A stretch of 64,000 nt of DNA. Origin: Devosia sp. RR2S18 (GTDB lineage: Bacteria; Pseudomonadota; Alphaproteobacteria; Rhizobiales; Devosiaceae). The position numbers and the translations under genes are program-made. The DNA lies in contig NZ_CP126539.1 in the NCBI RefSeq assembly GCF_030177755.1, positions 2,194,001 to 2,258,000 on the forward strand, read 5' to 3'. This document shows, in pieces, positions 7,426 to 42,140 of the stretch. Below the pieces are notes generated by a model that saw nothing but the letters and a program-made list of their open reading frames with translations, searched no databases and had not been told where the DNA came from. Numbering within the stretch: the stretch's first letter is position 1; each line of letters starts with the position of its first letter.

Positions 7426-8934
7426 TCATTGGCCGATCCTTGCCTCGCCAGCATAGCGCAGAGCTTCCTCGGCGGCACTAAAAAGAGCGCGAGCCTTGTT
7501 CTCGCACTCGAGCTGCTCGAGTTCGGGCTTGCTATCGGCAACGATGCCTGCGCCAGACTGCACGAACACCTTGCCATCCTTCAGGATGGCCGTGCGTAGC
7601 ACAATGCAGGTGTCCATGGTGCCATCGGCGCCGAAATAGCCGACGCAGCCGCCATAGATCCCGCGACGCGATCGCTCGAGCTCATCGATGATCTCCATGG
7701 CCCTTACCTTGGGAGCGCCAGAAACCGTTCCCGCAGGAAAACCGGCGGACAGCGCGTCAATGAAATCGTTCCTGGGATCGAGTTCGCCCACCACGTTGGA
7801 GACGATGTGCATCACATGGGAATAGTATTCGAGGAAGAACTTGTCCGTAACCTTGACGCTACCGGTCTTGGCGACCCGGCCGACATCGTTGCGACCCAGA
7901 TCGAGCAGCATCAGATGCTCGGCGCGCTCCTTGGGATCGGCGAGCAGTTCGGCTGCTAATTCCTGATCCCGCGTCGGGGTGGAACCACGCTTACGGGTGC
8001 CAGCGATGGGCCGGATGGTGACTTCGCCATTTTGCACTCGCACCAGGATCTCCGGGCTGGACCCCGCCACGGCAAAGTCGCCGAAGTCCAAAAAGTACAT
8101 ATAGGGCGATGGATTGGTGCGGCGCAGGGCACGGTAGAGGGCGGTCGGCGGCAGGGTGAAATCGGCGGAAAAGCGCTGGCTGAGCACCACCTGGAAGATG
8201 TCACCGGCTGCGATGTATTCCTTGGCCTTCGCCACCATGGCGAAATAGTCGTCTCGCGAGGTGTTGCTGGTGACCGCAAGAGATTCCAGCTGGGGCAGGG
8301 CGCTGGTGGCGGGGAGGGACCGACCCAAGCGGCCGATTGCATCGTCGATCCGCGCCTGGGCGGCTTCATAGGCCTGACGCGCCGAGACACCGCTGCGGAC
8401 ATAGACTGGCGCAGTCAGATAAAGCTCATCCTTGAGCGTATCGAAGATGGCCAAGAGCGAGGGACGGATCAGAATGGCTTCCGGCGTACCCAGCTCGTCT
8501 GGATTGCTGTCGGGCAGCACCTCCATATACCGGACCATGTCATAGCTGAGATAGCCATAGATGCCCGCCGATTGCGGCGGCAGGCCCTCGGGCGCTTCGA
8601 TGGCGCTTTCCGCAACGAGGGCCCGCAATGCATCAAGCGGTTTGTCGCTGATCGCCTCGAAGACCGAGGCGTCGAGATGCGCCGAGCGGTTGATTGACGG
8701 CTGCCCGCCCTCAACCTTGAGGATCACGTCGGGCAGCAGGCCAATAATGGAATAGCGACCGCGGGTCGTGCCATCCTGCACCGATTCCAGCAGGTAGGAA
8801 TTGGTGCGCCCCTCGGCGAGCTTGAGATAGGTGCCGATCGGCGTTTCGAGGTCCGCGACAATACGGCGCCAGACAATCTGCGACTTCCCAGCATCGTAGT
8901 GTTCACCGAAGCGCTGAAAGTCGTCGTCGCCCAT
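7426..8934 (-). CDS. trpE: Anthranilate synthase component I
   Basis: Makes anthranilate from chorismate using ammonia from TrpG; first committed step to tryptophan. The 502-residue protein has the N-terminal tryptophan-sensing signature SYLLES near residue 46, which predicts feedback inhibition, and the chorismate-binding core: FQVVLSQRF near 243, PSPYMYFLDFGDFAVAGSSPE, IRPIAGTRKRG near 316, LGRNDVGRV near 355 and FPAGTVSGAPKVRAMEIID near 404. Unlike the fused trpE(G) of Rhizobium and Brucella, the subunits are separate genes here. Only 38 bases separate it from the ppiD-like gene upstream, so it has little room for its own leader or attenuator. Confidence 0.95.
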   Translation of the reverse strand: MGDDDFQRFGEHYDAGKSQIVWRRIVADLETPIGTYLKLAEGRTNSYLLESVQDGTTRGRYSIIGLLPDVILKVEGGQPSINRSAHLDASVFEAISDKPLDALRALVAESAIEAPEGLPPQSAGIYGYLSYDMVRYMEVLPDSNPDELGTPEAILIRPSLLAIFDTLKDELYLTAPVYVRSGVSARQAYEAAQARIDDAIGRLGRSLPATSALPQLESLAVTSNTSRDDYFAMVAKAKEYIAAGDIFQVVLSQRFSADFTLPPTALYRALRRTNPSPYMYFLDFGDFAVAGSSPEILVRVQNGEVTIRPIAGTRKRGSTPTRDQELAAELLADPKERAEHLMLLDLGRNDVGRVAKTGSVKVTDKFFLEYYSHVMHIVSNVVGELDPRNDFIDALSAGFPAGTVSGAPKVRAMEIIDELERSRRGIYGGCVGYFGADGTMDTCIVLRTAILKDGKVFVQSGAGIVADSKPELEQLECENKARALFSAAEEALRYAGEARIGQ

Positions 8935-8963
8935 CTTGGATCTATCCAGTTTGGTGTGAAACC

Positions 8964-8981
8964 GGCCTGTGGTTACAGGCC
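8964..8981 (-). terminator. hairpin at the end of the ppiD-like gene
   Basis: A perfect 7-bp stem (GGCCTGT/ACAGGCC, loop of four) holds the stop codon of the upstream gene. There is no clear T-run, so it may be a weak or attenuating structure that lets part of the transcription enter trpE. Confidence 0.4.
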
Positions 8982-10847
8982 AGTGTTGAGTGCTAGCGCC
9001 TGCTGCAATGCCGGCTGGTTGATGCGTAGGCCCAGATCATTGGTCATCGCCGAGACGAAATCGCTGTAGAGACCGACGCGCAGCTCGTTTTCGAGGCTCT
9101 CCTGGGCGTCGGCTTCCAACGCGCCCTCAGCGGGCGTCGTGCTGATGACGTCGAAGACGACGAACTGGCCGGACTGGCTGACGGCGCTGCCGTGATGATC
9201 GGGACCGCCGGCAAAAACTGCGGAAGCTACGGTGGTGTCGATAGTGCCGTCATCGGCGCCGAAGCGCGTGAAAGGTTGGCTGAGCTGAGGGAAGGCATTG
9301 TAGGAGGCGGCGACCTCCGCCAGCGCTTCCCCGTTGTCGAGCCGCGCTACCGCATCATCAGCAGCCGCCAGGAGGGCGTCGTTCACCGCTTCGCTGGTAT
9401 AGGCAGCCGCGATCTCCTCACGCGCCTCCTCGAGTGTTTGATCCCGCGCCGGCTCAATAGTGCTGACGTTGAAGAAGAGGTTGCCGCTGCCGCCGAGCGG
9501 GAGAGACGGCGTTAGTGCATCGGTTTCAGCGCGGAAGATGGCCTCGGCAACCCGTTGACGATCTTCCTGGGGCAGGCCCTCGACCGCAGCAAGCTCTGTG
9601 CCACCGGCGGTGACGTCGAGCTCATAGAGTTCGAGACCGAAGCGTTCGGCGATCTCGGGCAAGGGACGGAAGGCCGCGCGGAGTTCCTCCACCTGATCGA
9701 GAATGTCGGAGATCTCGTTGCGTGCTTCGGTCATGGCCAAATCTTCGGCGATCTGGTCCCGAACATCCGCCAGCGCGGGTTCGCCGCCGGCTTCGATGGC
9801 CGAAACAAAGACGGCACGCTGACCGGCAACGCCGGGGATGAGGGCAAACGTCCCTTCTTCGAGCCCAAAGGCAGCGGAAGCGAGATTGCGGTCGGTGATG
9901 CCGCTCTGGGGCAGGGTGCCTAGCTGCGTGGCGGTGAGGCCTGCATCGGCAACCAAGGTCTCGAATGGTGTACCGGCGGCAAGGCCTGCTTCGAAGGCCG
10001 CGACCTGCTCGGGGGTAGAGAGCACGACCTGCTGGATGGTACGTCGCTCTGGAACGCTGAGATTGGTGCGCGTCCGCTCATACTCAGCCGCGATGGCTTC
10101 GTCCGAGATGGTCCTGCCAGCCGCGAGTGTGGCTGGAGAGAGCACCAGCACCTGTGTGCTGCGCGTCTCGACCGTACGGAACTCGGCCTGACGTTCTGCC
10201 AGATACGCGGCCAGTTCTTCTTCCGTCGGGGCGGGCGGTGTGGGGATGCTGAGCTCGGAGAGCGTGAAATAATCGATGGTGCGCTGGTCGCCGGCATAGC
10301 GGTTGACCAGTCGGGAAGCGGCTTCGGGCAAAGCGGCCTGGCTGAAGAGCGTCAGCGACAGCTGCTGCCGGCGTGCGGCATCGGCCTGGTTCTCGAAATA
10401 CTCCCGCTCGGTGACGCCGCTCATTTGCAGTACCTGCTGGAACGAGGCGGGATCGAACGTGCCTAGTGTTCCCTGAAAACTGGGATCTTCGCGCACCATC
10501 TGGCTCAGTTGCGCTTCGGAGACGCCGAGGCCGAAATCGCTCGCCATCTGCGTCAGCGCCGCTTCCTGACCCAGTTGCTGGAGCACCGCGGAGGGAATGC
10601 CGAAGTTCATCGCCTCCTCGGCAGTTGGCACTGAACCGAGCTGCTGGGCGATGCGGTTGAGCTGGTTCTGATAGGCGCGCAGGAATGTGCTCGACTCGAT
10701 CTCCTGATCGCCCACGGTGGCAACCGTGTTGCTGCCGAGCCCGGTGATGACATTGTTGATGCCGAAGCCTGCAAGCCCCACCAGGAGAAAGACACCGAGG
10801 ATTTTCCCGGGCCAAGATTTTGCAAAGGCACGCAAACTATCGAGCAT
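8973..10847 (-). CDS. ppiD: Peptidylprolyl isomerase/chaperone, PpiD-SurA type, membrane anchored
   Basis: Periplasmic folding factor for exported proteins, held in the inner membrane. The 624-residue protein starts with MLDSLRAFAKSWPGKILG and one membrane helix (about residues 17-36). A SurA-N-like domain follows (VGDQEIESSTFLRAYQNQLNRI near 45), then a parvulin-like region around 240-370, weakly conserved as in other alphaproteobacterial PpiD proteins, and a long C-terminal helical part. It diverges from tpiA and leads the minus-strand run into trpE, the usual place for this gene in related genomes. Family certain from N-terminal architecture; catalytic competence of the parvulin domain is not evident by eye. 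Confidence 0.85.
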   Translation of the reverse strand: MLDSLRAFAKSWPGKILGVFLLVGLAGFGINNVITGLGSNTVATVGDQEIESSTFLRAYQNQLNRIAQQLGSVPTAEEAMNFGIPSAVLQQLGQEAALTQMASDFGLGVSEAQLSQMVREDPSFQGTLGTFDPASFQQVLQMSGVTEREYFENQADAARRQQLSLTLFSQAALPEAASRLVNRYAGDQRTIDYFTLSELSIPTPPAPTEEELAAYLAERQAEFRTVETRSTQVLVLSPATLAAGRTISDEAIAAEYERTRTNLSVPERRTIQQVVLSTPEQVAAFEAGLAAGTPFETLVADAGLTATQLGTLPQSGITDRNLASAAFGLEEGTFALIPGVAGQRAVFVSAIEAGGEPALADVRDQIAEDLAMTEARNEISDILDQVEELRAAFRPLPEIAERFGLELYELDVTAGGTELAAVEGLPQEDRQRVAEAIFRAETDALTPSLPLGGSGNLFFNVSTIEPARDQTLEEAREEIAAAYTSEAVNDALLAAADDAVARLDNGEALAEVAASYNAFPQLSQPFTRFGADDGTIDTTVASAVFAGGPDHHGSAVSQSGQFVVFDVISTTPAEGALEADAQESLENELRVGLYSDFVSAMTNDLGLRINQPALQQALALNTGL

Positions 10848-10971
10848 CTGAGACGTTCCAATTCGGCGATGCTAGGCTTTACCGCATGAGCGGCGGCACC
10901 TAGTAATCCAGTTTGACAGCCGGGGTTAGGGCAAAGCCCGCCATGGTGCAAGAGGAATGCAGGAGCAAACA

Positions 10972-11727
10972 GTGACCATGACCATCACGCCGCTTATCGC
11001 AGGTAACTGGAAGATGAACGGCCTTCGCAGCTCGCTCGACGAGGTGGCGGAGCTCGCGGGGCTGCTGACCACCGGGGAAGCGCCGCGCGCACTTGTGGTC
11101 ATCTGTCCCCCTGCAACTATCCTCCATACGGTCGCCTCGGCCGGAGCGACCAGCGGGATTCTGGCGGGTGGCCAGGACTGCCACACCGCTGTCTCCGGCG
11201 CCCACACTGGCGACCTTTCCGCCTCGATGCTTGCCGATGCCGGCGCGCAATATGTCATCGTGGGCCACTCCGAACGTCGCGCTGCGCATGGCGAAACCGA
11301 CGAGGTGGTGCGGGCCAAGGCGGAGGCCGCCATTGGCGCGGGACTGAAGCCAATCATCTGCGTGGGCGAGACCGAAAGCGAGCGCGACGCGGGCAATGCG
11401 GAAGCCGTGGTCGCTAGCCAGATCACCGGATCGATTCCCGATGCCGCAGGCCAGCATGAGGTGATCGTCGCCTATGAACCCATCTGGGCCATCGGTACCG
11501 GGCGGACCCCGAGCTGCGAAGAGATCGGACAGATGCACAATGCCATCCGCCGGCAATTGGTGGAGCGGTTTGGGGAGAAGGGCGCCAGCACGCGCATTCT
11601 CTATGGTGGGTCGATGAAGCCGATGAATGCGCGCGAGATCCTCGACATCGAGAATGTGAATGGTGGCCTTGTTGGCGGCGCCAGCCTCTTGGCAAAAGAC
11701 TTCTACACCATTATCTCGGCGGTATGA
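10972..11727 (+). CDS. tpiA: Triosephosphate isomerase
   Basis: Interconverts dihydroxyacetone phosphate and glyceraldehyde 3-phosphate in glycolysis. About 250 residues form the TIM barrel with AGNWKMNG at the start, the catalytic histidine in VIVGHSERR, the catalytic glutamate in AYEPIWAIGTG and the phosphate loop ILYGGSMKP and GGLVGGASL. Three starts are in frame: ATG 10957, GTG 10972 and ATG 10978. GTG 10972 is favoured because AGGAG lies six bases upstream, but ATG 10978 is nearly as likely. It diverges from the ppiD-like gene. Confidence 0.96.
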   Translation: MTMTITPLIAGNWKMNGLRSSLDEVAELAGLLTTGEAPRALVVICPPATILHTVASAGATSGILAGGQDCHTAVSGAHTGDLSASMLADAGAQYVIVGHSERRAAHGETDEVVRAKAEAAIGAGLKPIICVGETESERDAGNAEAVVASQITGSIPDAAGQHEVIVAYEPIWAIGTGRTPSCEEIGQMHNAIRRQLVERFGEKGASTRILYGGSMKPMNAREILDIENVNGGLVGGASLLAKDFYTIISAV

Positions 11728-30808: not shown

Positions 30809-32355
30809 CCACCGAGCCATTCTACGTCACGACCGCGATTTCCTACCCGAATGGCGCGCCCCATATCGGCCATGCCTACGAGATGATCGCGACTGACGCC
30901 ATCGCCCGTTTCAAGCGGCTGGAGGGTCGCGATGTATTCTTCCTCACCGGCACGGACGAGCATGGCATTAAGATGGTGCAGACGGCCGCCGCGCAAGGCA
31001 TCACGCCGCGTGAACTCGCCGATCGAAATGCGGCCGAGTTCCAGCGGCTCGCGGCCGAGCTCAATATCTCCAATGACGATTTTATCCGCACCACCGAGGA
31101 GCGGCATCACGAGTCTGCTCAGGCGATCTGGAAACGGATGGAGGCCAGCAGCGATGGCGACATCTTCCAGTCCACCTACAAGGGTTGGTACTCGGTGCGC
31201 GATGAGGCCTACTTCGACGAGGATGAGCTGACTGAGCGCGACGGGAAGCGCTTCGCTCCCTCGGGCGCCGAGGTCAGCTGGGTTGAAGAACCGACCTACT
31301 TCTTCCGCCTTTCGGCCTATCAGCAGAAACTGCTCGACCTCTACGAGGCAAATCCAGATTTCATCGCGCCCAAGGAGCGGCGTAACGAGATCATCTCTTT
31401 CGTCAAAGGCGGCCTGCAGGACCTCTCCATCTCACGTACCACTTTTGACTGGGGCATCCCCGTTCCGGATGCGCCCGGGCACGTGATGTATGTGTGGGTC
31501 GACGCGCTCACCAACTACATTACCGGCGTGGGCTTCCCAGACGAGACAAGCGAGCTGTTCAAGAAATTCTGGCCCGCCGACCTCCACGTGATCGGCAAGG
31601 ACATCATCCGCTTCCATACCGTCTATTGGCCAGCCTTCCTGATGAGTGCCGGCCTACCGGTGCAGCATCGCGTCTTCGCTCACGGCTTCTTGACGGTCGA
31701 TGGTCAGAAAATGAGCAAGTCGCTGGGCAACGTTATCGACCCCTTTGAACTCGTCGCCGAGTTCGGCGCCGACCCGGTCCGCTACTTCCTCCTGCGTGAA
31801 GTTTCGTTCGGGCATGACGGCGACTACAGCCGCGAAAAACTGACCAATCGGGTCAATGCCGACCTCGCCAACAACCTTGGCAATCTTGCACAGCGTTCTC
31901 TCAGCATGATCAACAAGAACTGTGGTGGACAGGTGCCACAGTTCGGTGCCGCTTCTGCTGAAGATGAAGCACTCGATCAGGAGGTCGGTGACGCTCTTGC
32001 AGCCGCTCGCAAGGCCATGGATGAGCAGCTTGTCCACGAAGCCGCTGGGGCGATCATCGGGGCCCTGAGCGCCGCCAACAACTACTTTGCCGCCCAAGAG
32101 CCATGGGCACTCAAGAAGACCGACCCAGAGCGCATGGCGTCTGTTCTCTATCGCACCGCTGACACAGTGCGGCGGCTTGCCATTCCCATGCTCGCCTTTG
32201 TTCCAGTCTCAGCGGCACGCCTGCTCGACCAGTTGGCGGTGCCTGAAGCCGAGCGCCTGCTGTCGTTTGCAGAAGAGGCGAACCGCCTAGCACCCGGCAC
32301 TGAATTGCCTGTTCCACAAGGCGTTTTCGCCCGTATTGAGCGTGAGGCGGACTGA
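30805..32355 (+). CDS. metG: Methionyl-tRNA synthetase
   Basis: Charges tRNA-Met. The 516-residue class I enzyme has the HIGH-type motif in [24 protein letters not shown], the KMSKS loop in [17 protein letters not shown] and a helical anticodon domain ending near 510. It belongs to the short type without a C-terminal EMAP-like tRNA-binding domain. The open frame extends upstream to 30676 inside holB, but ATG 30805 overlaps the holB stop in the ATGA manner seen throughout this run. Confidence 0.97.
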
Positions 32356-33134
32356 TGTTGATCGACAGTCACTGCCACCTCGACTTCGAGGCTCTGGCCG
32401 CCGATATCGACGGCGTGCTCGCTCGGGCAGACACTGCCGGCGTGAGCGGCATGGTGACGATTTCCACACATGTGGAAAAGTTCTCCACATATGCAGGGCT
32501 GGCGGAACGTTATGCGAACGTCTGGTGCTCGGTCGGTACGCACCCGCATCATGCAGATGAAGAATTGCACATTCAAACGGAAGACCTGGTTCGGCTAAGT
32601 GCCCATCCCCGTTGCGTTGCTATCGGCGAAGCAGGGTTGGATTACTTCTACGACAATGCTCCAAGAGAGGCACAGGCGACGGGCCTGCGTCGGCACATCG
32701 CAGCCTCGCGGATAACCGGTCTTCCACTGGTTATCCACAGCCGGCAGGCTGACGACGACATGGCGAAGATCCTCGAAGAGGAGGCAAGGCAGGGCGCATT
32801 CCCGTTCGTCCTGCACTGCTTTACGGCAGGCGCAGAGCTGGCCGAACGGGCTTTGGCGCTCGGCGGCTATATCTCTTTTTCCGGCATCATCACCTTCCGC
32901 AATGCTGAAGAGATTCGCGAGGTCGCCAAAGCAGTCCCGGCCGACCGCTACCTGGTCGAAACGGATGCGCCCTACCTTGCGCCCACTCCACACCGGGGCC
33001 AGTCCAACGAACCAAGCTTTGTAAGGCACACCGCCGGCAAGGTCGCCGAGGTTCGCGGGATCACGTTGGAGCAGGTCGGAGCGGAGACAACTGCCAATTT
33101 CGCACGGCTCTTCAGCAAGACCGGACTTGCGTAG
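32355..33134 (+). CDS. TatD-family metal-dependent DNase
   Basis: Metal-dependent hydrolase, probably a deoxyribonuclease in repair or quality control. The 259-residue TIM barrel carries all metal ligands: HxH in IDSHCHLDF, Glu in GEAGLDYFYD, His in VIHSRQADDD and HCF, and Asp in VETDAPYLAPTPHRG. It overlaps metG by one base (TGATG). The tmk-holB-metG-tatD order is standard. Confidence 0.93.
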   Translation: MLIDSHCHLDFEALAADIDGVLARADTAGVSGMVTISTHVEKFSTYAGLAERYANVWCSVGTHPHHADEELHIQTEDLVRLSAHPRCVAIGEAGLDYFYDNAPREAQATGLRRHIAASRITGLPLVIHSRQADDDMAKILEEEARQGAFPFVLHCFTAGAELAERALALGGYISFSGIITFRNAEEIREVAKAVPADRYLVETDAPYLAPTPHRGQSNEPSFVRHTAGKVAEVRGITLEQVGAETTANFARLFSKTGLA

Positions 33135-33138
33135 AGCT

Positions 33139-33975
33139 ATGCCGATCGCGCAGCGGATCATTGCGACCATTCTGGGCTGCGGTTCGTCGGGTGGTGTGCC
33201 GCGCATCGGCAATGTTTGGGGCGACTGTGACCCCGATGAGCCAAGAAATCGCCGCCGTCGCTGCGCCTTGTTGCTAGAGGGTTGGAGCGAGGGAAGCGAC
33301 ACACCTACCCGCGTTTTAATCGACACCGGCCCCGATCTTCGCCAGCAGATGCTCGACGCCGAAGTGGACCGCGTAGAGGCAGTGCTCTATACGCACGCCC
33401 ATGCCGATCACATCCATGGCATAGATGACCTGCGTGTCCTGGCCCTGCACAACCGCAAACGGGTGGACGTCTATTTCGACCCGGAGACTGGGGCGCGGCT
33501 GCATGAAGCCTTCCGCTATTGCTTTGTTTCCCCGCCAGGCAGCGACTATCCCCCCATCCTCAATGGCCATCAGATCAGTCCTGGTCAGGAGCTTGTGATA
33601 GACGGGCCGGGGGGCATAATCCATACTACAGTGTTCGAGCAGACCCATGGTCAGATCACCTCGCTCGGATTTCGAGTAGCAGATTTTGCTTACTCAGTGG
33701 ACCTTTCAGGCTTTCCCGATCAGTCGATCAGTGCACTGCAAGGGTTGTCGCTCTGGGTTCTGGATTGTCTTCGCCCAACTCCGCACCCGAGTCATCTCAG
33801 CCTGCCTGAGGCACTGGACTGGATAGAGAAAGTGCAACCGCGAAGCGCCGTGCTCACCGACATGCACATCGACCTCGATTACAACCGGCTCGAGGCAGAA
33901 ACACCGGAGCACATAACTCCGGCGTTCGACGGCATGCAGATCGACGTTGTGGCGGGCAAGGTGCTGAACCGCTGA
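33139..33975 (+). CDS. MBL-fold metallohydrolase, PhnP-like
   Basis: Probable phosphodiesterase of the metallo-beta-lactamase fold. The 278 residues show GCGSSGGVPRIGNVWGDCDP near the start (the PhnP-type opening), the metal motif THAHADHIHGIDDLR near 78, FEQTHGQITSLGFRVADFAYSVDLSGFPD and a terminal ILTDMHIDLDYN histidine. ATG 33139 is used; an in-frame TTG at 33127 would overlap tatD. It is the last backbone gene before the F420 cassette, whose last gene ends two bases away on the other strand. Confidence 0.87.
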   Translation: MPIAQRIIATILGCGSSGGVPRIGNVWGDCDPDEPRNRRRRCALLLEGWSEGSDTPTRVLIDTGPDLRQQMLDAEVDRVEAVLYTHAHADHIHGIDDLRVLALHNRKRVDVYFDPETGARLHEAFRYCFVSPPGSDYPPILNGHQISPGQELVIDGPGGIIHTTVFEQTHGQITSLGFRVADFAYSVDLSGFPDQSISALQGLSLWVLDCLRPTPHPSHLSLPEALDWIEKVQPRSAVLTDMHIDLDYNRLEAETPEHITPAFDGMQIDVVAGKVLNR

Positions 33976-33977
33976 GA

Positions 33978-34979
33978 TCAGCGGAACGCGGGGATTACAT
34001 GCCGACCGTAATTGGCGATAATTTCTTCCTCGTCGCCGCTATCGAGATAGATGTTGAACTGGGTAACGCCAGCATCCTTGAGCGCATGCATTTTGGCAAT
34101 GTGGTCGTCGGGCTCTCCCAGCACACAGAAGTTCTCGACCACATCTGGCGTTATGAAGTCCAGAAACGGGTTGTCCGACTGGCCGTGCTTTGAATAGTCG
34201 TAGCCCCGACGCTTCTCGATGTAGCTGGTAAGGCTCTTGGGGATTTGGTCGTTGTCGGCGCCATATTTTTCGACGATGTCGGCCACGTGGTTGCCAACCA
34301 TGGCTGGGAACCACTTGGTAGCTTCAACGGCCCGCGCCTTGTCGCCGAAATAGGCTGGTGCGGCCGCCATCGAGCGGTAATTGCTCATGTTCCGGCCAGC
34401 AGCCTTGCCTGCATCCAGGCACTGATCGGTAAACCACTTGCAGAGGCCGGGATCGGCCAGCTGCAGCACGACACCATCAGCGTGCTCACCCGCTGTTTTC
34501 AGCGCCAGAGGACCATAAGCCGCGATCCAACTGGGCATCTCGTGGCCCACTGCCCAAGGAAACTTTACCGGTTCGGCGACATCGCCATAGGTGACTTCTT
34601 CACCGCGAACCATGGCCTGGGTCTTGTGGATGAACTCGGCGACACGGGCCAGCGTAGCAGGCTTTTTGCCCATGACGCGGCGCGAACTGTCACCACGACC
34701 GACAGCAAGATCGAAGCGGCCGCCGCTCTGCTTGGAGAGAGAGCCAAAGATGGAAGCCGCGACTGACCAGTCCCGCACGTCGGGATTGGTCACCAGCGGA
34801 CCGAACCGCATGGTATTCGTGTTTTCCATGCACATGGCGATTGCGGCGTAGCAATCGCGCCAGAGGATATGGGAGTCGTAGAACCAGCAATAGCTAAACC
34901 CCGCATATTCTGCCGCACGAACCAGGTACCTTGCCCGCTCCGCCTCAACGAAGCCCTTGAACGTGATGCCGAATTCCAT
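33978..34979 (-). CDS. Luciferase-like F420-dependent oxidoreductase (TIGR03842-type)
   Basis: TIM-barrel LLM-class oxidoreductase expected to use F420 rather than FMN. The 333 residues begin MEFGITFKGFVEAERARYLVRAAEYAGFSYCWFYDSHILW and include GRFDLAVGRGDSSRRVMGKKPA and YGPLALKTAGEHADGVVLQLADP, the pattern I associate with the CPS_4043/TIGR03842 group. Substrate unknown. ATG 34979 has GGAGGGCGGC just upstream. It is the last gene of the F420 cassette, 74 bases behind the ABC ATPase gene; that gap has its own palindrome, so it may also have its own promoter. Confidence 0.84.
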   Translation of the reverse strand: MEFGITFKGFVEAERARYLVRAAEYAGFSYCWFYDSHILWRDCYAAIAMCMENTNTMRFGPLVTNPDVRDWSVAASIFGSLSKQSGGRFDLAVGRGDSSRRVMGKKPATLARVAEFIHKTQAMVRGEEVTYGDVAEPVKFPWAVGHEMPSWIAAYGPLALKTAGEHADGVVLQLADPGLCKWFTDQCLDAGKAAGRNMSNYRSMAAAPAYFGDKARAVEATKWFPAMVGNHVADIVEKYGADNDQIPKSLTSYIEKRRGYDYSKHGQSDNPFLDFITPDVVENFCVLGEPDDHIAKMHALKDAGVTQFNIYLDSGDEEEIIANYGRHVIPAFR

Positions 34980-35010
34980 GCCGCCCTCCGCTGGTTGGCT
35001 GCTGCAAAAA

Positions 35011-35028
35011 TTTGACCAGCCGATCAAA
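35011..35028. promoter_or_regulatory. palindromic operator in front of the LLM oxidoreductase
   Basis: TTTGACCA-GC-CGATCAAA, matching the palindrome at 39722-39741 in 15 of the 16 arm positions when both are aligned except for the inner CG/TG and A/G differences; both fit TTTGACCA-N2-(T/C)G(G/A)TCAAA. It is embedded in a wider inverted repeat AAAAATTTGA...TCAAATTTTT (35006-35033). Probably a binding site of the same unknown dimeric regulator. Confidence 0.6.
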
Positions 35029-35053
35029 TTTTTGGGCGGAGGCTAAAGGATTG

Positions 35054-35863
35054 TCAATTGCTATTCTGCTGACCATCGGGCGAAAGCAAGTCATAGGCGA
35101 TGATGGGCCGGCCAGTTGTAGGGTGGCGCAGTAAGCTTGCGGACACGTCGTAGACACTGTTCAGCCGGGCAGGGGTGAGGACCGCCTCCGGAGCGCCCGT
35201 GGCTATCACGCGTCCCCTATTCATTAAGACAAGATCGTCGCAGAACCCTGCTGCCAAGTTGAGGTCGTGCAGGGCAATCAGCACCGTCATGCCCTCTGCA
35301 GCCTTCTCCCTGAGGAGTTGAAGGACGGATAGTTGTGCCTGTACGTCAAGGTGGTTGGTGGGCTCGTCTAGGATCAGCAACTGCGGCTGCTGCACAAGTG
35401 CGCGGGCGATATGCAAGCGTTGCTGCTCTCCGCCGGAGAGGGTCGAGAAGTCGCGTTCAGCGAAACGCGACATGCTCACGGCACTGATTGCTGCCGACGC
35501 CAGTTCCCCGTCGTCCGGTGAGGGGACGGACTGCCAGATGGATTGAAACGGTATGCGCCCGAGCAGCACCACCTCACGGGCAGACAGGTGGACGTCGGCG
35601 CTGTGGGATTGCTCGACGAAGGCCGCCATTTGGGCACGGTCTCTCCGCGACATAGCGAGAAGGTCGATACCGGCATAAAGAATCGTGCCCGCAGCGATGC
35701 TTGTGAGCCCAAGCATCGCCCTCATGAGCGTCGACTTACCGGCTCCGTTCGGTCCCAGCAAGCCAGTCACTTTTCCCGTCCGCATGTCCAACGAGATATC
35801 CTCGATGAGGGCTTTGCCTCCAACTCGAACTGTCAAATTGCGGATTATCAGGTTCCCGCTCAT
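35054..35863 (-). CDS. ABC importer ATPase, proposed F420-0 (BtuD/FecE type)
   Basis: Energises the importer encoded by the next two genes. The 269 residues contain Walker A LLGPNGAGKSTLMRA near 36, Q-loop AAFVEQSHSADVHLSAREVVLLGR, signature LSGGEQQRLHIARAL near 140, Walker B LLILDEPTNHLD near 162 and the switch His in IALHDLNLAAGFCDD. By sequence alone it is a FecE/BtuD-like type II importer ATPase. Assignment to F420-0 comes from its place between cofE and F420 enzymes, as in the cassette described by the TIGR03873 model. Its start overlaps the permease stop by four bases. Confidence 0.82.
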   Translation of the reverse strand: MSGNLIIRNLTVRVGGKALIEDISLDMRTGKVTGLLGPNGAGKSTLMRAMLGLTSIAAGTILYAGIDLLAMSRRDRAQMAAFVEQSHSADVHLSAREVVLLGRIPFQSIWQSVPSPDDGELASAAISAVSMSRFAERDFSTLSGGEQQRLHIARALVQQPQLLILDEPTNHLDVQAQLSVLQLLREKAAEGMTVLIALHDLNLAAGFCDDLVLMNRGRVIATGAPEAVLTPARLNSVYDVSASLLRHPTTGRPIIAYDLLSPDGQQNSN

Positions 35864-36876
35864 GTCATGCGCCTATAACGCAGCAGCACCAGGAGGAAGA
35901 TGGGAGCGCCCACAAGGGCGGTGATGATGCCCACCGGAAGTTCTCGCGGCTCGAAGAGGGTGCGAGCGGCAGTATCGGTCCATACCATGAACACAGCGCC
36001 CGTCAGCATTGTAAGCGGGAGCAAGGTACGATGCCGGCTGCCGGTAGCAAGGCGTACAACATGGGGAATGACGAGCCCGACAAAGCCAATGGCGCCGCCG
36101 ATCGAAACCAATATTCCCGTCAGCAAAGCCGTAGTGCCCAGCACGAGCCAGCGCAAACGAGCGACGTCGACGCCCAGAGCAGCAGCGGCTGTGTCGCCGA
36201 AGGCGAATGCGTCCAGTGAGCGCGCTGCCAGGCAAACTGGAAGCCCGAGGACCGCGATTGCCCCCATTGCCAGAAGCGCATCCGTCCAGAGAACACCGCT
36301 GAGCGAACCCAAGAGCCAGCTCAGGATTTCTCGATACGAGTCCCCTGTTGCTGACCAGAAGATCAAAAGCGAGGTCGCCGCAGCGGCAAGCGAGGACACC
36401 GCGATGCCCGCGAGAATGGCGCGCGCAGGCGTTGCGCCTCCCAAAAGTCGCGTAATGAGCAGTGTCAACGTAATAGCGGCGAAGGCGCCAAGAAAGGCGC
36501 CGAACGGCATCAGCAAGGCTGCGCCGAGCAGAAGAAAGCTGACCGCACCCAGGGAGGCACCCGATGAAAGCCCAAGCAGATAGGGGTCCGCTAGTGGATT
36601 GCGGGTCAGGGCCTGCATGGCGGCACCGCAGAGCGCGAGGCCCGCACCAACAGCCGCTGCAACAAGCACTCTTGGCAAACGCAGTTCCCAGATGATGGCT
36701 TGGCGCAAGTTTGAGGCAGCGTCGACCTGCACCAGTCCGAGACGATGGACAATGGTGGTCCACACTTCACCTGGCGCAATATCGGCGGGGCCGACAGTCA
36801 CGGCGATGGTCATGCTCGACAGCAGGGATAACCACAAGGCAGGGAACGCAAGCGCACGGGAGCGCGCTAGGTTCAT
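35860..36876 (-). CDS. ABC importer permease, proposed F420-0 (BtuC/FecCD type)
   Basis: Inner-membrane channel subunit with about nine to ten helices over 338 residues. FecCD landmarks: LRLPRVLVAAAVGAGLALCGAAMQALTRNPLADPYLLGLSSGASLGAV near 65-115 and FVGLVIPHVVRLATGSRHRTLLPLTMLTGA near 265-295, the coupling region, followed by ELPVGIITALVGAPIFLLVLLRY. The family usually carries cobalamin, haem or ferric siderophores. Here the operon context points to the deazaflavin F420-0 (cf. TIGR03869). It overlaps both neighbouring transporter genes by four bases. Confidence 0.82.
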   Translation of the reverse strand: MNLARSRALAFPALWLSLLSSMTIAVTVGPADIAPGEVWTTIVHRLGLVQVDAASNLRQAIIWELRLPRVLVAAAVGAGLALCGAAMQALTRNPLADPYLLGLSSGASLGAVSFLLLGAALLMPFGAFLGAFAAITLTLLITRLLGGATPARAILAGIAVSSLAAAATSLLIFWSATGDSYREILSWLLGSLSGVLWTDALLAMGAIAVLGLPVCLAARSLDAFAFGDTAAAALGVDVARLRWLVLGTTALLTGILVSIGGAIGFVGLVIPHVVRLATGSRHRTLLPLTMLTGAVFMVWTDTAARTLFEPRELPVGIITALVGAPIFLLVLLRYRRMT

Positions 36877-37817
36877 TGTTCGAACGTCAGCTGGTCTAGC
36901 TGCTGCGCCATGTCAGCGGCAGCTCCGACATTGCGTACTCCGGCTTCGGAAGCAGGAAATGGAACCACCAGGTAGCGCTGGTTCGCCACTGCCGAGAGTT
37001 GGCTGGTAACCGGATTTTCTGCCAGCAAGCGTCTCTTCTGCTCCGCGGAGTTCCATTCGGAATCCACCAGAACAATGACGTCTGGGTCAGCATCGACGAC
37101 CGTTTCCCAACTGGCCGAAATCCAGGACTCGTCTGTTCCGTCAAAGATGTTTTCTAAACCGACAGTCTCAAAAATCATCTGAGGCGCACCGTTTCCAGCG
37201 CCCACATAAGGGGTTTTCGTGCCGGAAGAGTACCAGAGCGCTGTCAGGCCTCGCTCGTCTAGTTCAATAGAGTCCAGTTCGGTGCGCAGTTGGTTCGTCA
37301 GCCCGGCCGCAGCCTCGGTGACTCCGAAGATGTCGCCGATTTCTTCGATCTGGCTGAACAATGCTTCAAAGGTGAGCTTCTCTGGCGTGTGGGAGCGACA
37401 CGCTGCAGGCGAAACATAGCTATCGATTCCCAAAGTCGTGAGTGTCTGCCGCTCACCCGCACCATCGGCGGAGAAATTGCTTTCCCAGCCGCCGTAGATA
37501 AAGTCGGGCTCCAGCTCAAGCACTACCTCCTGCGAGGGCAGCTTCTCTGAGATCACCGGGATCGCCGATGCTGCTTCCGCCCATCTTGTAGGTACCGGCG
37601 CATCCAGGAAAGCAAGGCCGATCATCCGATCTTCCAGGCCGAGGGCAAGCAGCAGCTCGGCGGATGTCGACTTAATCGCTACCACCCGTTCGGGTGGGGC
37701 CTCGAAGATCACCTCCATTCCGCAGTTCTGCACAGCCAGCGGGTAGGTTTCCTGAGCGCGGGAAACGCCGGGAGAGGCAAGGAGGAGGGCGAGTGCTACA
37801 GCGATTACGGAGCGCAT
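36873..37817 (-). CDS. Periplasmic substrate-binding protein, proposed F420-0
   Basis: 314 residues with a signal peptide (MRSVIAVALALLLASPGVSRAQ). The mature part has the type III (FecB/BtuF) pattern: APPERVVAIKSTSAELLLALGLEDRMIGLAF, then LEPDFIYGGWESNF, a bridging helix around 155-180, and DADPDVIVLVDSEWNSAEQKRR. It lacks a lipobox, so it should be free in the periplasm. The ligand is not visible from sequence; the gene sits three bases behind cofE, and the arrangement fits the TIGR03868 proposal of an F420-0 binding protein. A siderophore or cobalamin ligand remains the alternative. Confidence 0.78.
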   Translation of the reverse strand: MRSVIAVALALLLASPGVSRAQETYPLAVQNCGMEVIFEAPPERVVAIKSTSAELLLALGLEDRMIGLAFLDAPVPTRWAEAASAIPVISEKLPSQEVVLELEPDFIYGGWESNFSADGAGERQTLTTLGIDSYVSPAACRSHTPEKLTFEALFSQIEEIGDIFGVTEAAAGLTNQLRTELDSIELDERGLTALWYSSGTKTPYVGAGNGAPQMIFETVGLENIFDGTDESWISASWETVVDADPDVIVLVDSEWNSAEQKRRLLAENPVTSQLSAVANQRYLVVPFPASEAGVRNVGAAADMAQQLDQLTFEQ

Positions 37818-37820
37818 AAC

Positions 37821-38654
37821 TTAGTCCTGTTGCTGCTTTTGCCGTTTCGGCTCTGCATGGCCGTCTCGAAGTTCCGCAAGCGCCGCTTCATAGCCGAGCC
37901 GGTAGGCTTCGGCGGAGCCGAAACGAAACATATCGTCATCTACGGAGCGAACCAGAGTACGTGCTCCAGGCGCGTCCAAGTCGGCCACGAGGCGCGACAA
38001 TCCGCGCACCACGGCGACAGGGATGTTGCTCGCTTTGCCCTTCACCAGATCGGCAGCGCCAGCCAGTTCATCGGCCAACACAGTTACGGTGACCTGAAGC
38101 GGACGACCGTTGGCGTCCGCGCCACCACGCAGGTCATCTGTGACGGTCAAGCCGGCGGCCCCGATGGCAACGTCGGTTTGTCCGACGCGCCATGGTCGCC
38201 CAAATGTATCAGTTATGATAACGCCAATGCGGACGCTTAATTTGTGCCTCAGGCCCTCACAGAGGTACCGGGCAGACAAGTCGGGATCTTCTGGCAGCCG
38301 CAGTGCCACGCCATCGGGGACATTGCTCGTGTCAATTCCAGCAGCTGCCATGATGAGGCCGTGCCGCGTCTCCACTATTTGAGTCACGCCCCCTGGGTGC
38401 ACGCGTTCAGCAACGATCCGGACGGTGTCTTGGGCGATCGCCTTCTCACGTTCTGCCGCGGGTACCTGACGGCCTTCACTCTTAGAAATTATCTTGCTGG
38501 TTACGACAAGAATATCTCCGTCCCGCAGCATGAACTCAGGATCTTCTGCCGCCTGCGCATCGATCGCTTCAACGAGCAGACCTATGAGATCATCACCCGG
38601 CCCGATTTCTGGAAGGCCGGTAACGCCCCAGATGCTATATCGCGGAATTGGCAT
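37821..38654 (-). CDS. cofE: Coenzyme F420-0:L-glutamate ligase
   Basis: GTP-dependent enzyme that adds gamma-linked glutamates to F420-0, making F420. The 277 residues show the family core: [17 protein letters not shown] near 44-60, [17 protein letters not shown] near 98, [24 protein letters not shown] near 145 and [23 protein letters not shown] near 205. It is the stand-alone form; the nitroreductase-like FbiB extension of mycobacteria is absent. The ATG has GGAGG upstream. It follows the glucose-6-phosphate dehydrogenase gene by 30 bases and precedes the binding protein by three. No other F420-synthesis gene (cofC, cofD, cofG/H) is in the window. Confidence 0.93.
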
Positions 38655-38684
38655 CGAGGTCCTCCTCTAAAGCAGGGGCAGGGG

Positions 38685-39683
38685 CTATTGCAGCTTTCTC
38701 AGCCGCGGCAGAATCTCCTTGGCATAGAGATCGATGAAGCGGCTCTGATCGTCACCGGGCGCATGAAAGACCAGGTGGTCGAACCCATAATCAATATAGG
38801 CCCTGATGGCCTCGACATGCTCATCGGGGTCGCTCGACACGATCCATCGCTTGGCGATCCTCTCGATGGGCAGTTGGGCGGCCAGTCGCTCCATTTCCTC
38901 TGGATCTTCAACCGAGTGCTTCTCTTCAGCTGTCAGGGACAGCGCAGCCCAGCCGCGGGTATTCTCCATCGCCTGATGAGCATCGGGGTCGAATGACACC
39001 TTCACTTCGATCATGCGCTCGAACGGTTTGGATGCAAGCTGCGATTCTGCGCGCCCAGCAGCAACGTTGGGCAGCAGCGTCTCAGTATAGAGCTCCTGGC
39101 CTTTGCCCGACGTACAGATGAAACCATCTCCAGCACGTCCGGCATATTTCGCGTTGAGGGGCCCGGCGCCGGCGATATAGATTGGCACCATCTCGTCGGG
39201 CTTATCGTAGATCGTGGCATTCTGCGTTTTGTAGAATTCCCCCTCGAACGTTACGCGATCTTCGCTCCAGAGCTTACGAACGAGCTGGACCGCTTCCCGC
39301 AGGCGAGCCGATCTTTCCTTGAGCTCAGGCCACACCATGCCGGTTGACGGTACTTCGTTGAGGGACTCGCCCGTACCAACGCCGAGAATGACTCGGCGCG
39401 GAAACATGGCGCCGAGCGTTCCAAAGGCGTGCGCCACAACCGAGGGATGCAACCGGAAAGTTGGTGTGAGCACCGATGTACCAAGAACAACATTGCTGGT
39501 CCGTGCGAGAACCGCAGCCATCCATGCGGGCGCGAATGGTGCATGACCATCGGTGTGCTTCCAGGGCTGGAAGTGATCGCTCACAAAAACGGAGTCGAAG
39601 CCAGCTTGCTCTGCCTGCACAGCAAAGTTGAGTAGTTCAGTTGGGGCAAACTGCTCTGCCGATGCCTTGTAGCCCAAGCGCAC
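38685..39683 (-). CDS. fgd: F420-dependent glucose-6-phosphate dehydrogenase
   Basis: Oxidises glucose 6-phosphate and reduces F420 to F420H2. The 332 residues follow mycobacterial FGD1 closely: [12 protein letters not shown] at the start, catalytic His and Trp in [10 protein letters not shown] (His37, Trp41), catalytic Glu in [11 protein letters not shown], and the phosphate-contacting Lys/Lys/Arg equivalents in [22 protein letters not shown] and [13 protein letters not shown]. The frame is open up to 39749, but GTG 39683 with GGAGG five bases upstream begins exactly where family members do. It is the first gene of the cassette; a palindrome lies 39 bases upstream. Rare outside Actinobacteria, so transfer is likely. 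Confidence 0.93.
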
Positions 39684-39721
39684 GATGACCTCCGCTGATA
39701 TCCTCTGGACAGCAGGCCTAG

Positions 39722-39741
39722 TTTTGACCAACTGGTCAAAA
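39722..39741. promoter_or_regulatory. palindromic operator in front of fgd
   Basis: TTTTGACCA-AC-TGGTCAAAA, a perfect inverted repeat with 9-base arms, 39 bases before the fgd start codon and placed where a repressor would cover the promoter. The same core recurs at 35011-35028 in front of the last cassette gene. It is typical of a dimeric HTH regulator of the TetR or GntR kind; none is encoded nearby. Confidence 0.7.
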
Positions 39742-39966
39742 AAGTCCATGCAGAACCGCTATGATGGCGGACAACAACCCCCAAGCTTAACCAGGATGTG
39801 CTTACAAGTTCCATAATATATATTACGCGAATGGCGGAGCTGGTGATCCGTCTCGTCCCTCCCTCCTCCTGTTCCGTTGTGTGCATCCATAGGAAGTGGC
39901 TGGTCTGGCAGACGCTTGCTGCTAACCTCATCGTGCAAGGCAATTCGAATCCAGTGGAGGCTTTCC

Positions 39967-40776
39967 GTGCAACCGTCCCGAGATATCGCCCGGCTGATTG
40001 AAATCATGGCTGCGCTGCGTGCCCCTACGTCCGGTTGCCCGTGGGATCTCGAGCAGGACTTTGCGAGCATCCGGCACTACACGATCGAAGAAGCCTATGA
40101 AGTCGCGGATGCCATCGAGCGAAATGATATGGGCGACTTGCGGGAGGAGCTTGGCGACCTGCTGCTTCAGCCCGTCTATCATGCACAGATGGCTACTGAG
40201 GCTGGGCTGTTCGATATCGGTGACGTGGTCTACGCCATTACCGAGAAACTGATCCGCCGTCATCCGCACGTCTTCGGCGAGACACGAGCGGATAGTTCCG
40301 ATGCAGCCAAGGGTCGCTGGGAAGCGATCAAGGCCGAAGAGCGTGCGGAGAAAGCTGCACGGTCTGGCGATCATGTCCCGTCCGTACTGGATGACGTACC
40401 TAATGTGTTACCGGCGCTTGCTCGTGCCGAGAAGTTAGCCAAGCGTGCAGCAAAGGTGGGCTTCGATTGGCCAGACCTTCCGTCGGTCATGGCCAAGGTT
40501 GTGGAAGAGTTAGAGGAAGTGAAGGAGGCTTCGGTACGCCAGGATGCTGCAGCCATGCACGAGGAGATCGGTGACCTTCTGTTCGCTGTGGCAAACCTTG
40601 CGCGCCATTCAGGAGTGAGCCCTGAGGCGGCCCTGCGGGACGCAAATGTTAAGTTCACACGCCGCTTTCACTACGTCGAAGAACGGTGTCGAGAAGACAG
40701 AATTGTGCCTTCTGACGCCGGGCTGGATCGCTTGGAGAGATACTGGAACGAGATCCGAGAAGCTGACAAGGCTTAA
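39967..40776 (+). CDS. mazG: Nucleoside triphosphate pyrophosphohydrolase MazG
   Basis: Hydrolyses (d)NTPs to monophosphates, a house-cleaning role. The 269-residue protein has the tandem MazG domains of the long form: the first with CPWDLEQDFASIRHYTIEEAYEVADAIE and LREELGDLLLQ (ExxE-12-ExxD metal motif), the second with VVEELEEVKEAS and HEEIGDLLFAVANLARH. GTG 39967 has GGAGG six bases upstream. It diverges from the F420 cassette; its last four bases overlap the convergent hflX. Confidence 0.93.
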   Translation: MQPSRDIARLIEIMAALRAPTSGCPWDLEQDFASIRHYTIEEAYEVADAIERNDMGDLREELGDLLLQPVYHAQMATEAGLFDIGDVVYAITEKLIRRHPHVFGETRADSSDAAKGRWEAIKAEERAEKAARSGDHVPSVLDDVPNVLPALARAEKLAKRAAKVGFDWPDLPSVMAKVVEELEEVKEASVRQDAAAMHEEIGDLLFAVANLARHSGVSPEAALRDANVKFTRRFHYVEERCREDRIVPSDAGLDRLERYWNEIREADKA

Positions 40777-42140
40777 AGATCTGCTCCCTCTAGTCGGCCA
40801 TTGAAGCGTTCCAAGAACGCCGCGCGATGGCGTGGCTCCACCCGCACCGAGTATTGGGTCCCCTGCTCCGTCGGCTCCTCACGTGATATGATTTCCGTAT
40901 GCGAGTGCAGCCAGCCAATGTCACTTCCGGCGGAATGAGGGACATGCACCTTGTAGGTTCTGCTGTTCTCACCCAGTGCAGTTTCGATCGCGAGCTTCAG
41001 AGCATCAAGTCCTTGCCCGGTATGAGCGGATACCGGCACAACTCCTGCCACCCGTCCTGCTGGTGCGATGCCACTCAATTGATCTTCGACGGGAATGCCC
41101 TCGCTCCCCAAAAGATCGACCTTGTTCCACACTTCAATGATGGACGTCGTTTCTGGCGAAACTCCGAGCTCGGATAGAACCTGTAGAACATCCTGCGCCT
41201 GTGCGACGTGGTCAGGGCTGGCGATGTCACGCACGTGGAGGATGACGTCCGCTTCAAGCACCTCTTCAAGCGTCGCCCGGAACGCAGCGACGAGGTCGGT
41301 TGGCAGGTCGGCTACAAAACCAACCGTATCGCTGATCATCACCTCTCGTCCGTGCGGTAGCTCGAGCTTCCGCACTGTTGTGTCAAGGGTGGCAAACAGG
41401 AGATCCTCAGCGAACACCCCTGCCCCACTAATTGCGTTGAACAGGCTAGACTTACCAGCATTGGTGTAGCCGACCAGCGCAACGATGGGCATGTCCAAGC
41501 GCTTTTGGCGCTGTTGCGCACGGGTCTTCTTCACCTTCTCGAGCCGCTCCTCAAGAAGGACGATGCGCTCGGTGAGTTGGCGACGATCACTTTCGATCTG
41601 CGTCTCGCCCGGCCCGCCCATGAAACCCAGGCCGCCAGTACCGCGCTGGCGCTCCAGGTGCGTCCAAGATCGAACGAGGCGGCTCTTTTGGTAGTTGAGA
41701 TGGGCGAGTTCAACCTGCAGAACACCCTCGCGCGTGGCGGCGCGTTCACCGAAAATCTCGAGAATTAGCGCGGTGCGGTCGAGCACCTTTGCCTTGGTTT
41801 CCCGCTCGAGATTGCGCTGCTGAATGGGTGAGAGCGCGGCATCGACCAGGATGAGGTCTATTCCCTCTGTCTGGACGCGCTCAGCGAGTGTCTCAACTAG
41901 GCCACCACCGATGAAAGTAGCAGGCTTGACCTCACGGACGCGAACTGTTTCCGAAAAGGCTATTTCGAGATTTATCGCTTCAGCGAGCCCTTCGAACTCG
42001 GCCTTCCTAGCCTCCAGGCTATGCTGGGAGTGGGTGCCGCGGACATCGGGACAAAGAAGGCCGGCACGCGTCGGTTGGGCCCGCCGGTCTATGAATGGCT
42101 GCGGCCCCGTCCGGCCATCCTCGTCCTCGAAGTCTCCCAT
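40773..42140 (-). CDS. hflX: Ribosome-associated GTPase HflX
   Basis: GTPase that splits stalled or stressed ribosomes. About 455 residues: the glycine-rich linker GTGGLGFMGGPGETQIESDRRQL after a coiled coil near 165-210, then the G domain with G1 ALVGYTNAGKSSLFNAI, G2/G3 TLDTTVRKLELPHG and ISDTVGFVADLP and G4 WNKVDLLG. ATG 42140 lies five bases after the hfq stop; the longer frame upstream is inside hfq and rejected. The hfq-hflX pair is conserved across Proteobacteria. Confidence 0.95.
   Translation of the reverse strand: MGDFEDEDGRTGPQPFIDRRAQPTRAGLLCPDVRGTHSQHSLEARKAEFEGLAEAINLEIAFSETVRVREVKPATFIGGGLVETLAERVQTEGIDLILVDAALSPIQQRNLERETKAKVLDRTALILEIFGERAATREGVLQVELAHLNYQKSRLVRSWTHLERQRGTGGLGFMGGPGETQIESDRRQLTERIVLLEERLEKVKKTRAQQRQKRLDMPIVALVGYTNAGKSSLFNAISGAGVFAEDLLFATLDTTVRKLELPHGREVMISDTVGFVADLPTDLVAAFRATLEEVLEADVILHVRDIASPDHVAQAQDVLQVLSELGVSPETTSIIEVWNKVDLLGSEGIPVEDQLSGIAPAGRVAGVVPVSAHTGQGLDALKLAIETALGENSRTYKVHVPHSAGSDIGWLHSHTEIISREEPTEQGTQYSVRVEPRHRAAFLERFNGRLEGADL

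Follow-up and report, generated by a model that had tools for sequence, protein, structure and literature searches.

Ever since the protein family TIGR03868 was defined, import of F420-0 has been proposed on bioinformatic grounds, and actinobacterial cassettes for such an importer were reportedly proposed by Selengut and Haft in 2010. In the accessible parts of a 2021 review (PMC8498797), Fgd in Alphaproteobacteria carries a question mark and predicted producers are spoken of; one putative exporter is mentioned there, and those parts contain no match for salvage, uptake or Devosia. Here we describe a cassette of six genes in Devosia sp. RR2S18, located in a stretch of 64,000 nucleotides of its genome (contig NZ_CP126539.1, positions 2,194,001 to 2,258,000; hereafter the window). 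The genome is a single contig of 3,965,430 bases with a completeness of 99.94%. The cassette lies on the minus strand at 33978-39749 by open reading frame (ORF) coordinates, and encodes an FGD, a CofE, the binding protein, permease and ATPase of a putative importer and an LLM-class oxidoreductase (Table 1). We propose, with a probability of roughly 0.8, that this operon serves the genus Devosia for the salvage and use of F420-0. The proposal builds directly on sequence, namely on gene content, family membership, active-site residues, the lack of matches to cofG, cofH and CofD, and strict co-occurrence across genomes.

Five of the six proteins pass the curated NCBIfam cut-offs of their families. 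A preliminary description of the locus had placed six co-directional genes here and suggested comparing the three transporter proteins with TIGR03868/03869/03873. ORF coordinates and family scores bear out the gene placement on the minus strand, and the binding protein and permease exceed their cut-offs, whereas the ATPase has TIGR03873 as its top match at a score below the cut-off. The genes are tightly packed: ATPase and permease, and permease and binding protein, overlap by 4 bases each, with gaps of 3 bases between binding protein and CofE, 30 bases between CofE and FGD and, given an LLM start at the ATG at 34979, 74 bases between ATPase and LLM. The FGD has two candidate starts, the ATG at 39749 or an in-frame GTG at 39683, the latter being the end coordinate of the preliminary description.

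In an alignment of the FGD with FGD1, 206 of 334 aligned residues are identical. His40, Val74 and Glu109, together with Lys198, Lys259 and Arg283 of the phosphate pocket, map to identical residues, and Ser73 falls within an identical TSV stretch. Roles for these residues in F420 and glucose 6-phosphate binding are given in the accessible parts of PMC3859598 and PMC5352752, and those that we checked are kept, as expected from the FGD1-type active site noted earlier. By family cut-off and retained residues, then, this protein is an FGD, with glucose 6-phosphate as its predicted substrate. Strict glucose specificity does not follow, because these phosphate residues are shared by a clade that accepts a wider range of sugar 6-phosphates (PMC6279831, accessible part). 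The CofE lacks the nitroreductase half of FbiB, the FbiB-type model being matched only at positions 13-261 of 449; Pfam finds F420_ligase only, and a folate-type ligase is contradicted by the TIGR04132 score (69.1 bits, cut-off 350).

Table 1. The six genes of the F420 cassette of Devosia sp. RR2S18, in window coordinates
Feature	Position	Strand	Supporting matches
FGD	38685..39749	-	TIGR03554 498.7 bits, cut-off 420; best PDB match FGD1 3b4y, E 3.8e-140
CofE, coenzyme F420-0:L-glutamate ligase, single-domain	37821..38654	-	TIGR01916 223.9 bits, cut-off 180.65
Substrate-binding protein, putative F420-0 importer	36873..37817	-	TIGR03868 426.4 bits, cut-off 392.4; relative of 4mlz, E 4.7e-86
FecCD-type permease of importer	35860..36876	-	TIGR03869 454.8 bits, cut-off 437.35
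Importer ATPase	35054..35863	-	TIGR03873 top model, 338.6 bits, under cut-off 372.4
LLM-class oxidoreductase, presumed F420H2-using client	33978..34979	-	TIGR03842 483.6 bits, cut-off 295.45

Of 121 Devosiaceae genomes (Devosia sp. RR2S18 included), an identical set of 58 carries binding protein, CofE and LLM, and none of the three is found in the other 63. The true FGD is present in 51 of the 58 importer genomes and in no other of the 121; the other seven, all of genus g16, have an FGD-like LLM, 33-34% identical, in its place. Score thresholds were set at gaps in the match lists, at least 366 bits for the binding protein (next score 269), at least 158 for full-length CofE (next 31, a fragment in genome G094), at least 476 for the TIGR03842 LLM (next 81) and at least 486 for FGD (next 223). 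Binding-protein relatives under the gap were not counted, 98 of the 121 genomes having some match. The Fisher value for the co-occurrence is 5.8e-36 which, the genomes being related, is not a count of independent events. Because importer, CofE and LLM recur jointly in 57 further genomes of the family, a chance association of these genes is excluded.

The preliminary description had named a full F420 synthesis set elsewhere in the genome as part of what would refute salvage; no such set came to light. Searches for cofG, cofH and CofD at E 0.001 gave no match in Devosia sp. RR2S18 (cofC and FbiE were not searched); in 14 control genomes the same searches match in 11, 11 and 10, respectively. Across the family, CofD is matched in 0/121 genomes and cofH passes its cut-off in 0/121, with seven weak matches of at most 27.6 bits. 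These results bear on the idea that the importer carries FO, which would be converted to F420 in the cell. One producer, Mycetohabitans rhizoxinica, does have FO in its supernatant (PMC11104420, accessible part). However, the step from FO to F420-0 needs CofC and CofD and, with CofD unmatched throughout the family and no candidate for it in Devosia sp. RR2S18, FO as the cargo is highly improbable.

The importer proteins carry the Pfam domains Peripla_BP_2, FecCD and ABC_tran. This FecB/FecCD fold class is shared with importers of siderophores, heme and B12, whose models score next best, and another LLM of Devosia sp. RR2S18 matches a flavin mononucleotide (FMN) family, TIGR03885. The transporter could thus be of an ordinary kind for siderophores, heme or cobalamin, standing among F420 genes by chance, with the FGD and LLM using another flavin. 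We regard this as very unlikely. The F420-0 models score about twice the next best or more for the binding protein (426 bits versus 140 for EitA) and the permease (454.8 versus 232.4 for BtuC); the runner-up for the ATPase is a heme importer model at 249.4 bits. In a binding-protein tree, a check suggested in the preliminary description, Devosiaceae and the actinobacterial TIGR03868 proteins share one side of a branch (Shimodaira-Hasegawa approximate likelihood-ratio test, SH-aLRT, 95), apart from 20 alphaproteobacterial paralogues; the tree was built from 93 of 156 rows and the paralogues are the lower-scoring ones. Moreover, the FGD retains its F420 residues and CofE is linked to the importer in 57/57 cassette loci. 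A second cluster in genome G060 (L074, G060:C16, 6556-12925), which also holds the main cassette, contains an importer, CofE (246.7 bits), an LLM and npdG (195.5 bits, cut-off 149.8), encoding an NADPH-dependent F420 reductase; its binding protein scores 366.3 bits, under the TIGR03868 cut-off. This importer class therefore also accompanies CofE with a different F420-reducing enzyme.

Some further observations concern these importers. The G060 second cluster adjoins CoA-transferase, enoyl-CoA hydratase-like and thiolase-like genes (labelled by eye). In genome G101, an additional set of binding protein, permease and CofE (L075, G101:C1, 1522-19789) has an FGD about 11 kb away and lies on a stretch that ends before any ATPase; this cluster is likely amino-acid catabolic and also holds a lyase, a dipeptide-type ABC importer and one more LLM (genes likewise labelled by eye). 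Two genomes carry, on the opposite strand between cassette and mazG, a further FecB/FecCD-type importer (L088, 13590-16385; L090, 13128-15923) that is 33-42% identical to that of Devosia sp. RR2S18.

The binding protein has a Sec-type signal and no lipobox, and a simple lipobox pattern is found in 75/76 actinobacterial versus 2/59 Devosiaceae binding proteins. Its nearest solved relative, PDB 4mlz (47% identical), is listed under the title 'Periplasmic binding protein', which names no function; we take its source to be Jonesia denitrificans. The Devosia sp. RR2S18 protein is unusually divergent, with a mean identity of 64% to the syntenic cassettes, which are themselves 80% alike (lowest row 76%); permease, CofE, FGD and LLM diverge less. 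Its partner in the tree is the second G101 copy, perhaps as a result of gene replacement or long-branch pull. Six columns, K49, S50, D72, S113, W255 and E291, set the F420-0 clade apart: each is conserved in at least 95% of its 136 rows and in no more than 15% of the 20 paralogues.

The LLM is related to the solved F420-dependent Mer (E 1.1e-29). A plasmid search with it returned 13 records: 10 from Leisingera, one from Paracoccus, one from Streptomyces (unannotated at the LLM site) and a partial one from Caballeronia; three of the 13 were inspected. Plasmids of Paracoccus alcaliphilus and Leisingera caerulea carry one run of cofG-cofH-cofD-cofC-cofE-npdG-LLM, the third gene of the P. alcaliphilus operon being annotated as 2-phospho-L-lactate transferase, and the closing LLM is 68-70% identical to that of Devosia sp. 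RR2S18. Judging by these cof operons and by the co-occurrence within Devosiaceae, the TIGR03842 LLM would be an F420-using enzyme. Four further LLM genes are present in the genome. One has its best match in TIGR03885 (465.5 bits, cut-off 398.7) and also passes the F420 subfamily TIGR03557 (271.9, cut-off 210.4), and the remainder match TIGR03858, TIGR03860 and TIGR03558; these four neither show nor exclude an additional F420 enzyme.

Set beside the two Rhodobacterales operons, which are few, the Devosia cassette has its importer in the place of cofGHDC and retains CofE, an F420-reducing enzyme and the client. Since the replaced steps end at F420-0, the substrate of CofE, the swap suggests F420-0 as the cargo. 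The importer might instead carry glutamylated F420-n, with CofE merely lengthening or remodelling the tail: tail length varies with the CofE homologues of known producers (PMC8498797, accessible part), environmental F420 may be mostly tailed, and the cargo's tail length is not readable from the cassette itself. Yet CofE would be needless if tailed F420 were imported, and it is found in 58/58 importer genomes, while in G094 it has decayed along with the rest of the cassette. The genes lacking relative to the Rhodobacterales operons are, moreover, those up to F420-0, and we consider a tailed cargo unlikely.

Within the genus the cassette is widespread, occurring in 49 of 60 sampled genomes and lacking from 11. 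Outside the window, the order FGD-CofE-BP-permease-ATPase-LLM (BP, binding protein) is found at 37 of 57 cassette loci; in 11 the LLM comes first and in seven an FGD-like gene does, one locus has no FGD (which lies elsewhere in the genome) and one ends at a contig end. In the window the cassette is flanked by an MBL-fold gene on one side and mazG on the other (named from the preliminary description and from homologues of the flanks). These flanks (metG-tatD-MBL and/or mazG-hflX) adjoin the cassette in 17/57 loci, some of the stretches being short. The preliminary description had likened the cassette to an insertion between backbone genes; given its presence in 49/60 genomes of the genus and 58/121 of the family, the several gene orders and the recurrence of these flanks, this is not supported, and recent insertion is rejected as the main reading. 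Pairwise identities of the five core proteins over 57 cassettes (the window's included) correlate with r of 0.68 to 0.89, which fits co-inheritance.

A remnant is found in G094, whose genome, from the same genus, is reduced to 2.0 Mb and where only CofE and LLM fragments are left (L133, G094:C52, ~8900-11200) between damaged hflX/mazG pieces and MBL, the CofE fragment containing a stop. The data fit a trait long established in the lineage that has at times been lost or moved. Such decay, and the genus genomes that lack the cassette, could also be taken as signs of a leftover, either non-functional or newly inserted. Against this, 58 genomes have open reading frames, the LLM proteins at 56 loci are 82-95% identical to that of Devosia sp. 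RR2S18, and core-protein identities correlate; a leftover of either kind is scarcely credible.

No Rfam match was found in 32000-41500. Promoter and terminator scans gave 3 matches versus 1.6 in shuffles and 7 versus 5.0, respectively, and were not used as evidence; a sigma-70-like match (10/12) at 35028-35057 on the minus strand, between ATPase and LLM, may thus be due to chance.

A scan of genome contigs yielded 422 importer loci, and the best 80 were kept, made up of 77 actinobacterial loci plus L197, L201 and L210, which belong to Devosia or kin. A cofH search covered 42 of these 80 genomes (41 actinobacterial, one Devosia), whose completeness is not given; cofH over the cut-off is absent from 39 of the 41 actinobacterial ones; besides the two that exceed it, six show weak matches, none above 32 bits. 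CofE lies within the stretch covered at 28 of 76 actinobacterial loci, each stretch being limited to about 9 kb or by the end of its contig, and many stretches show the importer with no CofE nearby. Four loci of Agromyces and Naasia (L154, L157, L195, L202) carry a relative of the true FGD (59-63%) and an FGD-like LLM (36-38%) near CofE and importer, so both FGD forms of Devosiaceae co-occur in actinobacteria. Among 385 genomes of the class a high TIGR03868 score is seen only in Devosia sp. RR2S18, a thin draw that listed four other genomes of the same order. Spread by plasmids was also considered, without gaining support: all 1243 plasmid records for the binding protein are below 60% identity, the top-ranked being 41% (Nostoc), and among the 40 matches listed, which were not scored with the TIGR03868 model, no TIGR03868-like copy stood out.

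The operon looks chimeric. CofE of the main cassettes and of actinobacteria share one side of a branch with support of 100/99, where there is a long-branch warning; the other side holds Paracoccus, Leisingera, Novosphingobium, Paraburkholderia, Sinorhizobium and two second copies. Correspondingly, CofE of Devosia sp. RR2S18 is 49-59% identical to actinobacterial and 37-45% to other proteobacterial CofE proteins. The CofE trees place Devosiaceae within Actinomycetota, and trees with Actinomycetota as a single group are not rejected (approximately unbiased, AU, p 0.135 and 0.155). Binding-protein and permease trees put Devosiaceae beside Actinomycetota, with the second cluster of G060 outside the main Devosiaceae group in the former. 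The LLM groups with Rhodobacterales (branch support 90/79) at the identities given above, versus 41-43% to actinobacterial TIGR03842 proteins. The FGD tree was used for grouping only, its branches being very long and its outgroup not falling on one side of a branch; in it, the single g16 FGD-like protein included clusters with CofE-linked LLM proteins of actinobacteria (support of 100 for the 12-row side and 84 for the inner fork). These trees and identities suggest CofE and a transporter nearest to those of actinobacteria, a true FGD and a client of alphaproteobacterial type. We lean towards a fuller account, to which we give somewhat better than an even chance: Devosia would be a genus-wide F420 auxotroph with an actinobacterial-type module (importer, CofE, FGD) and an alphaproteobacterial client, in which import replaces cofGHDC and the binding protein has lost its lipid anchor for the Gram-negative periplasm.

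As to cargo, direction of transport, source of F420-0 and client reaction, we infer the following scheme. Neighbouring F420 producers would release F420-0, a small molecule that would pass the outer membrane, perhaps via a porin. The soluble periplasmic binding protein would capture it and the FecCD-type ABC importer would pump it in. CofE would then attach the glutamate tail, FGD would reduce the F420 with glucose 6-phosphate and the TIGR03842 LLM would consume F420H2 on some substrate, import substituting for the cofGHDC portion of the pathway. Several points weigh against salvage by this operon. The ATPase falls short of its family cut-off, seven importer genomes have a cassette and no true FGD, and, the 121 genomes being related, the 58 stand for a much smaller number of independent events. 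Two importer genomes, those of Arthrobacter hankyongi and Myceligenerans pegani, have cofH over its cut-off, so an importer does not preclude synthesis. That soil contains free F420-0 is an assumption, and no biochemical transport or binding data for the F420-0 importer were found in open-licence literature.

Among the papers listed from the same literature (part of them judged by title or the start of the abstract) there were none on F420 import, salvage, uptake or auxotrophy; papers joining F420 with Devosia concern, by title, mycotoxins or mycotoxin control, plus a ciliate consortium. The view that the cassette was undescribed from this group thus stands for searchable papers, but in databases the name 'putative F420-0 ABC transporter substrate-binding protein' is already attached to Devosia proteins. 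The importer annotation is therefore not new, and the present analysis appears to be unreported within the searchable literature. The profile of 58/58 versus 0/63, with the importer in the place of cofGHDC before the same client, names the cargo about as sharply as sequence allows, and moves the question to Gram-negative bacteria with named, deposited strains, including a DSM strain of Devosia. If salvage is correct, F420 would join B12 among the cofactors traded between microbes, and F420-0 would be a shared good between soil phyla. Alphaproteobacteria with Fgd would then include importers and not producers alone, and Devosiaceae at least would be F420 users without synthesis.

Compared with known systems, the Devosia importer has the same Pfam domains as the BtuFCD, FecBCD and EitABC importers, but the best such models remain at 140 (EitA) and 232 (BtuC) bits against 426 and 455 for the F420-0 models. 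The Rhodobacterales de novo operon shares with the cassette the client LLM, at the operon end, along with CofE and an F420-reducing enzyme. It differs in having cofGHDC and npdG instead of FGD, with no importer in the operon, and its CofE is 37-40% identical to that of Devosia sp. RR2S18 and falls in another part of the tree. The actinobacterial importer cassettes belong to the same families TIGR03868/03869/03873, with a true FGD (at least 50% identity) in 10 FGD rows. Unlike these, the Devosia cassette joins six genes in a single unit in which CofE and FGD precede the importer, has a client of alphaproteobacterial type, and encodes a binding protein without a lipobox.

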